A stretch of 35,422 nucleotides of DNA from contig PXSQ01000049.1 in NCBI GenBank assembly GCA_003022725.1, positions 34,629 through 70,050 on the forward strand. Reading direction: 5' to 3'. Below, one piece after another: positions 340 to 32,174 of the stretch. A program made the position numbers and the translations under genes. How positions within the stretch are numbered: the first letter of the stretch is position 1; every line of letters begins with the position of its first letter. A model generated the notes under the pieces. That model searched no databases. It worked only from the letters and a program-made list of their open reading frames with translations, and was not told the DNA's origin. Source of the DNA: Halobacteriales archaeon SW_7_65_23 (GTDB lineage Archaea > Halobacteriota > Halobacteria > Halobacteriales > Haloarculaceae).

Positions 340-558
340 TACTGGTGGCTGTACGTACGTGGAAACTCGAATTGAGAATCCAGGCGGAACGGGTCTGTCT
401 CCGCAGATATACAGCCAGACGTGACTCCGTCCAGTGCCAGGACAGTCCATCGGCTGTGTCATGGCCCGAACAATGGGATTTGGGACGGCATGGCGTAACT
501 AAATCACGTCTGGCTGTATACCAGAGACTGGTGAATAAAAGAATTACAGCCACCAGTA
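340..558. mobile_element. MITE-like element, family A, interrupted by a second element
   Basis: The tips TACTGGTGGCTGTA (340-353) and TACAGCCACCAGTA (545-558) are perfect inverted repeats. Both sides are flanked by TGA (337-339 and 559-561), a 3-bp target repeat. An uninterrupted sister copy lies at 7392-7499 with only a few mismatches. Removing the inner element (410-518) and one TA leaves exactly the length of the sister copy. There is no coding capacity. Together with the nested element it fills nearly all of the gap between the zinc-finger gene and the glycosyltransferase. Confidence 0.85.
410..518. mobile_element. MITE-like element, family B, nested in the family A element
   Basis: This is a 109-bp element with perfect 15-bp tips TACAGCCAGACGTGA (410-424) and TCACGTCTGGCTGTA (504-518). 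It is flanked by TA on both sides (408-409, 519-520). Comparison with the uninterrupted family A copy at about 7460-7475 shows that one TA is the original target. TA duplication is characteristic of the IS630/Tc1-mariner group, so the mobilising transposase may be of that type (inference). It has no ORF of its own. Confidence 0.8.
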
Positions 559-1759: not shown

Positions 1760-1867
1760 TACTGTTGGACGTAATTTCGTGGAGTCACGCGTCACGTTCA
1801 GCCGTTCACCCGTGCGAATACAGCCAGGAGAGTGTCACGATGTGACACAGAGTTACGTCCGACAGTA
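1760..1867. mobile_element. MITE-like element, family C, directly after a stop codon
   Basis: This is a 108-bp element with tips TACTGTTGGACGTAA and TTACGTCCGACAGTA (one mismatch between the arms), flanked by TAA at 1757-1759 and 1868-1870. The left TAA is the stop codon of the glycosyltransferase. The element is the reverse complement of the copy at 9034-9141, with only two mismatches in 108 bp. It has no ORF of its own. Confidence 0.85.
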
Positions 1868-5394: not shown

Positions 5395-6287
5395 CGTCGC
5401 CTCCCGAGGCCTTTCCCGATGGAGCCAAGCAGCCGCCGCAGCCGCGACCGATCGCCGTCCTCGTCCTCGCTGCTCCAGTCGGCCCGGCGTTCGAGGAGGC
5501 TGATCACCAGGCTCATCGTCATCGTCACTGCCAGGTAGAACAGGCAGACCCACACCAGCGGCGTCCAGGGGTCGAGCTGGTTGCTGTTGATGTTCCGGAA
5601 CACACTCATGATCTCGTGGATCGCGATGACCGTCAGCAGGGAGGTGTCCTTGACGAGGATGATCTGGTCGTTGCCGATCGCCGGCAGGGCGTTGCGCCAG
5701 GCCTGAGGGAGGATCACCCGGCGCATCGCCTGGACGTTGGACATGCCCAGCGAGCGGGCCGCCTCCAGCTGGCCGTCGGGAACGGCGCTGACGCCGCCGC
5801 GAATCGCCTCCGCCACGTAGGCCTTGGAAATACGGGCGGTGATCGGGGAGGAGGAGATCCGGGCGACGCCCATGATCGTCGGGAACTGGCCGATCCCCCA
5901 CAGCCGCGGGACGCCGAAGAAGATGACGAACAGCTGGAACAGAAGCGGCGTTCCCCGGAAAAACTCCACGTAAGCCTTGGAGATGCGGGCGGTGATCGGG
6001 GAGGATGAGACCCGGGCGATGCCCATGATCGTCCCCAGCGAGACCGAGAGGATGCTGGAGACGACGACGATGAGCACCACCAGTTTGAACGCCTCGACGA
6101 ACCGCGGGAACACCGACTGTAGCAGCCGGTAGTCGACCTGTGTCGCGAGGATCCAGCCCAGAAACGACGCGATCGCCAGCGCGAACGCGGCCGCGACTAG
6201 CTCCCCGAGGCGCTTGACCGCCACGTCGTTCGCGAGGATACCGCCGTCGCTGACGCTCGATCCCTCTTCTGCGTACGTGTCTGCCAT
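5388..6287 (-). CDS. Polar amino-acid ABC transporter permease with internal duplication
   Basis: This 299-residue membrane protein belongs to the HisM/GlnP permease family. The N-terminal helices (around 30-48 and 66-90), the [19 protein letters not shown] segment, the EAA loop ([22 protein letters not shown], about 175-196) and the closing helix [20 protein letters not shown] are typical. The oddity is residues 137-158, which repeat residues 86-107 almost exactly (TIMG[17 protein letters not shown]). They sit where the family normally has a hydrophobic transmembrane helix ending in SGAYxAE. The DNA shows a 67-bp in-frame repeat. Transport may therefore be impaired. It lies 63 bp downstream of the binding-protein gene and overlaps the ATPase gene by 7 bp. 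Confidence 0.85.
5814..6033. repeat. 67-bp in-frame direct repeat inside the permease gene
   Basis: Copies at 5814-5880 and 5967-6033 differ at about 6 of 67 positions and are offset by 153 bp (51 codons). Both are in the same reading frame and encode nearly the same 22 residues. The downstream copy (lower coordinates) replaces the sequence expected for a conserved transmembrane helix. Confidence 0.85.
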
Positions 6288-26910: not shown

Positions 26911-26981
26911 CGGCGACAGCGACCGGAGACAACAGCGCCGGGCCGACAACCCAGGGCAGTCCCGCAGTCGCGGGGCCCTCA

Positions 26982-27172
26982 TACTGCCGGACGTGACTAT
27001 GTTACTCCGAGTGATGCTCATAGTGATTATTGTGAGTCGTTCCAGGATCGACCGCGCGACTACGTGCGGTCGACCCGGTACACAGTCACAATAATCACTA
27101 TCAGACTGGGGTTTTCGGTTGTCTCAGATGCTGAGCGCCATCCGGGTGGTAACGGAATCACGTCCGGCAGTA
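26982..27172. mobile_element. MITE-like element, family D, interrupted by a family E element
   Basis: The tips TACTGCCGGACGTGA and TCACGTCCGGCAGTA are perfect inverted repeats. Both sides carry TCA (26979-26981, 27173-27175). The right TCA is also the stop codon (TGA on the minus strand) of the next gene. Removing the inner element (27021-27100) and one TCA leaves 108 bp, exactly the length of the related copy at 32067-32174, of which it is the reverse complement with several mismatches. Confidence 0.85.
27021..27100. mobile_element. MITE-like element, family E, nested in the family D element
   Basis: This 80-bp element has perfect tips TAGTGATTATTGTGA and TCACAATAATCACTA and TCA on both sides (27018-27020, 27101-27103). 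The uninterrupted family D copy at 32067 has TCG at the matching place, so TCA is the duplicated target with one later change. Its reverse complement closely matches 30903-30982 (about 75 of 80 positions). It has a GC-rich centre with self-complementary segments. Confidence 0.85.
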
Positions 27173-28405
27173 TCAGATCGGGTAGACGAACCGCAGCAGC
27201 GGGAGGACGCCGACGACGATCCACAGAAGGACGCCGGTCCGCACGTGGCCCAGGTCGGCGTCGGGGTCCCGCGCGCTCCGGGAGGCGCCAGCAGCGATGA
27301 ACCCGATCGCGGCGACGACGGCGACGTGGTGGACGACCGTGTCCAGCGGCAGCGACCGCACGCCGAGGACAGTGTAATCGAACAGCAGCGTGACGAGGAA
27401 GGCGAGCGCGGCGACGGCGAACGCGGGGGTGGCGTCCAGCCTGCGGGCCGCGAGGTACGTCAGCACCGGCTCGCCGACGACGAGCACCGGCAGGAAGGCG
27501 GCGACCAGCAGCCAGGGGTCGATCCCCGGCAGCGCCCCGTGGGCAGCGATCGACCCGAAGCGGACGAACAGGTACGGCACGGCGACGGCGCCGGCCAAAA
27601 GCGCTGCACTACCGGTGTCGTCCCACCGGTCGAGGGCGGTCGCGATCCGGCGCTGGGTCGTCGCGAAACCAACGAGCATCGTTCCGCCGGCGAGCAGCCA
27701 CTGTTCGAGTTCGACGACGCTGACCCACCCGTCGGCGTCCGACCCCTTGCTGTTCCCGAACTGTTCCCGGCGGAGCTCCGCGTACTCCCGGTCCTGGAAC
27801 CGCTGGTCGACGTGACTCTGTGCCTCCTCGACGCTGTGGACGGTGTGGCGCAGCCGGAACCAGTCCCAGTGTTCGCGGTGGGCCTGGATCGCCGTCCACG
27901 TCCCGTCGGCCGGGTCGACGTACGCCCGGACGTGGTGGCGCGACCCGAAGTACTCGCCGTCGTGGAGGTGGTAGTCCGCCGGCTTCCAGTAGTGGATTCC
28001 CTCGCCAGGGGTTCTGAGCGCCAGGTAGCGGACGGCGCCCTCCGCCGGATCCCAGTCGACCCGCGGGCCCTCGATGGTGGCTGACCCCTCGTCCGGGCTG
28101 ACGTCCTGCTGTTGTTCGGGGACTTCCTCCCACTCCCCGGCGCCCTGTGCGAGGATCCGTTCGACGATCTCCGCGTCGCCGTAGACGACCACGTTGATCG
28201 GCAGCGTCCGCGTGGAGTGAGAGATCGTCTGACTGTGGTACGGCCACAGCTGCGTCCCGTCCTCGAGTTCGACATACTCGGCTTCGGCGTCGGCCGCCTG
28301 GTCGGCGTCGGCGGACTGGGTGCTCGCGATCCAGCCCCCGCTGACGACGAGCAGCGCGACGAGCAGCAGCGCCAGGGCGGTCGGGAGCGAGGGGCCAGCC
28401 GACAC
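27173..28405 (-). CDS. Membrane protein with LssY-like domain
   Basis: This is 410 residues from the GTG giving VSAGPSLPTALALLL. An N-terminal helix (ALALLLVALLVVSGGWIAS) anchors an extracytoplasmic domain: TRTLPINVVVYGDAEIVERILAQ, YWKPADYHLHDGEYFGSRHHVRAYVDPADGTWTAIQAHREHWDWFRLRHTVHS. These look like the LssY C-terminal domain, a fold of unknown role often found with PAP2 or membrane proteins. Five or six helices follow to the end (LLAGGTMLVGF, AALLAGAVAVPYLFV, LLVAAFLPVLVVGEPVLTYL, FAVAALAFLVTLLFDY, HHVAVVAAIGFIAAG, GVLLWIVVGVLPLLRF). An in-frame ATG 24 codons upstream lies inside a repeat element and is rejected; a TATA-like TTTATTG is about 25-30 bp before the GTG. Its TGA stop doubles as target repeat of the family D element. 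Confidence 0.65.
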   Translation of the reverse strand: MSAGPSLPTALALLLVALLVVSGGWIASTQSADADQAADAEAEYVELEDGTQLWPYHSQTISHSTRTLPINVVVYGDAEIVERILAQGAGEWEEVPEQQQDVSPDEGSATIEGPRVDWDPAEGAVRYLALRTPGEGIHYWKPADYHLHDGEYFGSRHHVRAYVDPADGTWTAIQAHREHWDWFRLRHTVHSVEEAQSHVDQRFQDREYAELRREQFGNSKGSDADGWVSVVELEQWLLAGGTMLVGFATTQRRIATALDRWDDTGSAALLAGAVAVPYLFVRFGSIAAHGALPGIDPWLLVAAFLPVLVVGEPVLTYLAARRLDATPAFAVAALAFLVTLLFDYTVLGVRSLPLDTVVHHVAVVAAIGFIAAGASRSARDPDADLGHVRTGVLLWIVVGVLPLLRFVYPI

Positions 28406-28445
28406 GATTGGCGAAACAACGGAACGGAACAATAAAAGCGTTTCA

Positions 28446-28553
28446 TAGTGATTGTTGTGACTCTTTAGGCCAGGCATTCGTCAGACTCCAGTTTCAGGCC
28501 GTGAAACCGCCGTTAGTGCGATGTGGCGCCAAAAACAATCACAACAATCACTA
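28446..28553. mobile_element. MITE-like element, family E variant, in a divergent promoter region
   Basis: This 108-bp element has perfect tips TAGTGATTGTTGTGA and TCACAACAATCACTA and TCA at both ends (28443-28445, 28554-28556). The interior differs from the 80-bp family E copies. It occupies half of the 217-bp gap between two divergent genes, ending 41 bp upstream of one start (28405) and 70 bp upstream of the other (28623). It could supply or displace promoter elements. Confidence 0.85.
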
Positions 28554-30902: not shown

Positions 30903-30982
30903 TAGTGATTATTGTGACTGTTTACCGGGTCGACCGCACGCAGTACCGCGGTCGATCCCGGAACGACTCACAATAATCACTA
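30903..30982. mobile_element. MITE-like element, family E
   Basis: This 80-bp element has tips TAGTGATTATTGTGA and TCACAATAATCACTA and TCA on both sides (30900-30902, 30983-30985). It is the inverted sister of 27021-27100. The right TCA is followed by GGC and then TCA (30989-30991), the stop codon of the epimerase gene on the minus strand. Confidence 0.85.
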
Positions 30983-32066: not shown

Positions 32067-32174
32067 TACTGCCGGACGTGATTCCGTTCCCACCCGGGTA
32101 GCGCTCAGCATCTGAGACAACCGAAACCCCCAGTCCGAGCATCACTCGGAGTAACAGAGTCACGTCCGGCAGTG
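32067..32174. mobile_element. MITE-like element, family D, uninterrupted copy with one damaged tip
   Basis: This 108-bp element has a left tip TACTGCCGGACGTGA; the right tip reads TCACGTCCGGCAGTG, with the last base changed. The flanks are CTA and TTC, so no target repeat remains. It is the reverse complement of the outer part of 26982-27172 with several mismatches. It directly abuts a truncated metallophosphoesterase gene, which suggests a deletion at this element. Confidence 0.8.

Follow-up and report, generated by a model that had tools for sequence, protein, structure and literature searches.

Nested MITEs in a haloarchaeal genome carry a 3-bp target duplication that often coincides with a stop codon

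The DNA analyzed here, called the window, is a stretch of 35,422 nucleotides from Halobacteriales archaeon SW_7_65_23 (GenBank assembly GCA_003022725.1, contig PXSQ01000049.1, positions 34,629 to 70,050 of the forward strand). Its source (the own genome, G000) is a 2.63-Mb haloarchaeal draft of 115 contigs that is 79% complete, and the nearest relatives sharing its elements are the MAGs SW_10_66_29 (G007) and QS_4_66_20 (G006). At the locus of interest one short element, E, is nested in another, D, and the composite, D(E), abuts the end of a gene. The features are as follows.

26979-26981, no strand: left target duplication TCA of outer D and of the D(E) composite; TCA also at the orthologous QS_4_66_20 locus
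26982-27017, plus strand: left part of MITE D, with the 15-bp terminal inverted repeat TACTGCCGGACGTGA
27018-27020, no strand: left target duplication of E, TCA, which is target site 1 of D (GATGCTCAGACTG)
27021-27100, plus strand: MITE E, an 80-bp near-palindrome with perfect 15-bp ends TAGTGATTATTGTGA
27101-27103, no strand: right target duplication of E, TCA
27104-27172, plus strand: right part of MITE D, with the still-empty target site 2 (TGTCTCAGATG, 27120-27130)
27173-27175, minus strand: right duplication of D(E), which also ends the neighboring gene as its minus-strand stop codon, TGA; the stop is kept in the QS_4_66_20 ortholog
27176-28477, minus strand: neighboring gene, a 434-aa open frame for an unknown membrane protein
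28446-28553, plus strand: E2, a 108-bp relative of E with ends TAGTGATTGTTGTGA and TCA on either side
30903-30982, minus strand: second copy of E in the window, TCA on either side
32067-32174, minus strand: uninterrupted 108-bp copy of D, with TCG where the target of E falls

The outer flanks of D(E) are matched, TCA on the left and TCA on the right. The neighboring gene is 98% identical to its QS_4_66_20 copy and has no Pfam family; its true start probably lies further inside the 434-aa frame. The sequence-only reading had placed an 80-bp, TCA-flanked element inside D at 26982-27172, and read directly from the sequence this element is E at 27021-27100. A repeat scan of the window recovered the nested arms (I2, I3, and I4).

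E is far from a chance repeat, as a similarity search of its own genome gave 71 matches, with E-like copies down to E = 3.5e-37. Both elements have the features of MITEs: they are 80 and 108 bp long, lack a transposase gene, and have perfect 15-bp inverted ends, a target duplication, and empty sites. They belong to a superfamily whose ends consist of TNA followed by TASNGNYNNNYGTRA; the own genome holds 592 such ends, compared to 2 for the reversed pattern, and other Halobacteria hold from none to 160. About 30 copies of E are present in the own genome, together with 199 E-type ends (0 in the reversed control) and 274 D-type ends (5 in the reversed control). Within 417 kb of this genome, 47 short elements have strictly matched TNA flanks, and the reversed sequence yields 0. 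Two length groups stand out, 77-80 and 108-109 bp, and TNA is the flanking trinucleotide in each of the D/B, E, G, X, and G020 classes. The target logo is C-T(C/G)A-G, so that the duplication is TSA, rarely TAA or TTA, with C or G as the middle base in 94%.

Support for a 3-bp duplication of the target came initially from the window itself. When 27021-27103 is removed from 26982-27172, the remaining 108 bp align with the reverse complement of 32067-32174 without gaps and with 7 mismatches, and the TCG noted earlier at the insertion point is indeed there, a variant shared with D copy C28 and the divergent C68. The duplication inferred from this pair stands, but the claim that the uninterrupted copy alone gave direct proof was too strong: it reads TCG rather than TCA, which makes it a weaker comparator, and as a paralogue that occupies a different locus, it serves as an internal control and not as the pre-insertion state of the same site. 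Its own outer flanks are not matched either, whereas those of the copy at 26982 are TCA on both sides. The relative age read from the pair, with E younger than the D copy that hosts it, holds within that pair only. Better empty-site controls are D copies C94 and C97, which read TCA at the junction, where the interrupted D halves overlap by exactly TCA.

The duplication rests on more than one pair. An identical trinucleotide stands on both sides of 79 of 97 distinct E-type elements from four genomes, against identical flanks of 2 bp in only 2 of the 97 and of 4 bp in none. In a class-by-class tally, the 3-bp duplication is present in 88 of 104 E-type elements. Empty sites of three kinds concur: the paralogous D copies, the orthologous locus of the QS_4_66_20 composite, and the E2 insertion in C97. 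One could argue that TCA is instead the outermost sequence of the element, since both window copies of E and D(E) have TCA on both sides and the strong target preference leaves one base free. As the T and A are nearly fixed by that preference, the test depends on the middle base and on the empty sites. The middle base matches between sides in 85 of the 97 elements, TCA/TCA and TGA/TGA each occur with both element orientations (18, 13, 15, and 9 cases for the four combinations), so that the trinucleotide is not part of the element, and the empty sites, each with a single TSA, refute this explanation, which we consider extremely improbable.

Three loci that are not orthologous to one another carry D(E), with separate matched duplications of TCA in the window, TGA in SW_10_66_29 (L097), and TCA in QS_4_66_20 (L098). 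The surroundings of the latter two are unrelated to each other's and to the window's locus. At the QS_4_66_20 locus, the orthologous site is empty in both the own genome and SW_10_66_29, reading ...GGCG-TCA-GTACCAGTC... with one TCA. The element at the SW_10_66_29 locus is absent from the own genome, where the junction has diverged. At the window locus, QS_4_66_20 has a remnant of D whose middle was lost between two CTAT repeats, which indicates that outer D was present before the split from QS_4_66_20. Given this age and the presence of D(E) at other loci, the nesting need not have arisen at the window locus.

Insertion into D is also not limited to E. D is a recurrent landing pad for superfamily members because it contains two CTCAG sites. 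Site 1 is occupied by E (three loci) or by G (SW_10_66_29 scaffold_389), and site 2 by E (scaffold_389, in the same D copy as G) or by E2 (C97), in each case with TCA on both sides. The scaffold_389 arrangement (L049 3629-3929) thus has two elements nested in one D, both with TCA duplications. In C20, G lies between the outer halves of both D sites, with the intervening 23 bp lost and TCA on both sides. D is an example of small-element nesting that arises repeatedly at two fixed sites.

Whether the three D(E) pairs share a single origin is a more delicate matter. By their D backbones, the three composites fail to form one group, with alleles CTATG/GGTAACG in the window and CTCTG/GGGAACG in the other two, which leaves room for repeated independent insertions of E at site 1. 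Such parallel events in each lineage are a real possibility, if a little short of even, as both D sites are hot (G, E, and E2 insertions in scaffold_389, C20, and C97), the D alleles of the window pair are unlike those of the other two, and the outer D at the window locus is old. Set against this are the identical site and orientation of E in all three composites and a C at position 61 in all three inner copies that occurs in only 11 of 74 E copies. Further, the QS_4_66_20 pair is lineage specific, its site being empty in two other species, so that a single insertion of the composite is simpler than two insertions in succession, and its inner E is already damaged at one end. Bounded by intact D ends, D(E) would probably be able to move as a single unit.

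Since TGA is compatible with the target, superfamily insertions often coincide precisely with a stop codon. With genes called by a simple purpose-written predictor, 48 of 129 distinct sites in three sets have a duplication that doubles as the stop codon of an intact neighboring gene, namely, 12 of 29 in the own genome (p = 1e-4), 24 of 61 in SW_10_66_29 and QS_4_66_20 (p = 2e-6), and 12 of 39 in G020 (p = 0.009), where the share expected is roughly 7% for TSA sites outside genes and, with weighting by the target logo, 12-15%. A prediction-free count, in which insertions and CTSAG sites come from partly different genomes, gives 52 of 137 insertions compared to 49 of 348 CTSAG sites downstream of an open stretch of 150 codons or more (p = 2e-8). 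Within 60 bp behind the stop codon, the logo-weighted excess is not significant in two of the three sets and reaches p = 0.03 only in the own genome. Hence, the target motif combined with the loss of insertions within genes may account for the coincidence, without special targeting.

Many of the genes involved are plainly genuine and whole. Duplication of the stop codon leaves a stop beside the gene, which is thus unharmed, and D(E) in the window is such a case. Pfam domains reach the C terminus in the affected genes for PCNA, eRF1, glyoxalase, and TrkA_C. Others with an insertion at the stop codon encode RNase HII, phytoene synthase, an Na/H exchanger with TrkA domains, a class I aminoacyl-tRNA synthetase, DnaJ, replication factor C, and DNA polymerase IV, and the gene at the QS_4_66_20 composite encodes a pyridoxal-dependent decarboxylase. 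Stop-codon duplication offers a simple reason for the many copies in a compact genome, as the protein is unchanged even for PCNA, eRF1, RNase HII, and aminoacyl-tRNA synthetase, and this harmlessness may be why insertions persist. We found no paper in the open-access literature on MITEs inserting at stop codons. While nested MITEs are already known, that literature seems not to describe either the 3-bp target defined here for the superfamily or the overlap of this target with stop codons.

In 417 kb of the own draft genome (79% complete), and near the forward ends that were read in the complete genome G020, no autonomous element bearing these ends was found. PF01609 transposases were rejected as a parent, as three partial matches in the own genome have ends that do not match, and the PF01609 genes of the relatives likewise. 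The one transposase-bearing candidate in G020, of 1491 bp (L117 1008-2498) with D-like ends and TCA on both sides, proved to be a 1403-bp PF01609 IS, with its own ends CATYCGTCTTTAGCTAA and a 10-bp duplication, inside a 78-bp MITE. At C8:52846-54094 of the own genome (L136 12846-14094), a 305-aa regulator-like gene and an inner MITE lie between B-type ends spaced by 1249 bp; the outer flanks show no matched duplication, and two MITEs seem to have been rearranged here. In G061, a 1544-bp pair resolves into two separate MITEs of 78 bp, one on each side of a DNA polymerase IV gene, with the second at the stop codon of that gene. Ten genomes lack the PIF/Harbinger-like domain PF13359, viral contigs contain no exact match to three end patterns, and a plasmid search gave one weak E-like match, in Halococcus dombrowskii.

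The IS1031 subgroup of IS5 has TNA targets, and D and E resemble this subgroup and IS5-family MITEs in their TNA-type 3-bp duplication and short inverted ends. An example is the 140-bp ISMma12-related MITE of the IS5 family, with a direct repeat of 3 (PMC3852290). Unlike the IS5 family, D and E have ends that start with TA, and no IS5-type transposase with such ends was found in the own genome and its relatives. An IS630/Tc1-mariner-type MITE was rejected, as this type requires a TA duplication, whereas D and E have TNA; only class T has TA. This class of the own genome (109 bp, ends TACAGCCAGACGTGA) lies at window positions 410-518, as the inner element of a nested pair at 340-558, and occurs also in L140, L141, L143, L145, and L150. 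It shares 13 of 15 end bases with TACTGCCGGACGTGA and the length class of D, but its flanks are TA/TA in 7 of 9 copies and never a matched trinucleotide.

Similar in general form are the SMRs of Haloquadratum walsbyi, in which SMR-A measures about 110 bp and SMR-B can be as short as 80 bp (PMC3119063). Like D and E, these are gene-less haloarchaeal elements of ~80 or 110 bp with prominent inverted ends and tens of copies, no known transposon with matching ends, and a record of insertion into other mobile elements (PMC3119063). Compared by description, they differ in being reported without a target duplication, where D and E make one of 3 bp, and SMR-A prefers palindromes of IS605-type elements (PMC3119063), where the target of D and E is C-TSA-G. 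Archaea also contain 19 MITE-like structures without an autonomous partner (PMC3852290), which are likewise repeated, with inverted ends and sometimes direct repeats. By description, they differ from the D/E superfamily, whose members occur across many genera and share a defined target of 3 bp.

Two explanations without a cut-and-paste transposon were considered. Short, palindromic, high-copy, intergenic elements that carry no gene could be moved by a Y1 enzyme, as REPIN/RAYT-like repeats or as haloarchaeal IS200/IS605-type PATEs. However, repeats of this kind leave no target duplication, as stated for IS605-type elements and PATEs (PMC3119063), so that the 3-bp duplication seen here refutes this reading, and PATEs are without the perfect terminal inverted repeats of D and E; its probability is very low. 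The elements could instead be a conserved structured RNA, such as a 3' UTR hairpin, as their folding is strong (z of -9.5 for E, which folds as a single hairpin, and -6 to -8 for D) and many copies lie directly behind stop codons. We judge this to be unlikely. There is no Rfam match, and the copies, with their target duplications, are scattered over unrelated sites. The inner stem lacks compensatory upkeep, with 103 broken cells compared to about 117 in shuffles, and the 7 pairs that covary, where shuffles yield 6 at most, are mostly within the ends. The hairpin is attributable to the long inverted ends, with inner pairs decaying.

Our data make it highly probable that D and E are two MITEs mobilized in trans, with E nested in D, by cut-and-paste insertion at C-T(C/G)A-G with a 3-nt stagger, and with insertions on stop codons that leave the gene unharmed. 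A cut-and-paste transposase supplied in trans would act on the ends of D and E, and its 3-nt staggered cut at the palindromic target would copy TSA on each side. D, via its two CTCAG sites, would then receive other members of the superfamily. No transposase gene with matching ends was found, which agrees with published accounts of archaeal orphan MITEs and SMRs (PMC3852290, PMC3119063), and the DDE-type chemistry is what we infer. More tentatively, with confidence somewhat below even, we suggest that this is an orphan superfamily spread over several families of Halobacteria, with nearly 300 copies here, served by an undescribed transposase whose target includes TGA; the stop would be rebuilt at each such insertion, the ends of essential genes would tolerate it, and nested pairs would hitch-hike. 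The target as now fixed, C-TSA-G with 3 bp duplicated, reduces the range of enzymes to look for, and the loci provide clean filled/empty pairs for orphan mobile elements of haloarchaea, a class represented by SMRs and orphan MITEs (PMC3119063, PMC3852290).

Several further arrangements were observed. In L136 6604-6823 and L142 11694-11860, MITE pairs stand head to tail with one TCA shared or abutting, and look as if one MITE had targeted the duplication of the other. D occupies one orthologous stop codon in two species (L139 11853-12048 and L052 about 5515-5577), where later damage differs, with a G insertion and 23-bp loss in one and an internal deletion in the other. Insertions at stop codons are also seen at window positions 1760-1867, in L139, L144, L150, L152, L183, and L195, and elsewhere. 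At L163 364-3660 of G020, a MITE lies at the stop codon of a gene for the replication factor C small subunit that contains an intein and a LAGLIDADG domain.
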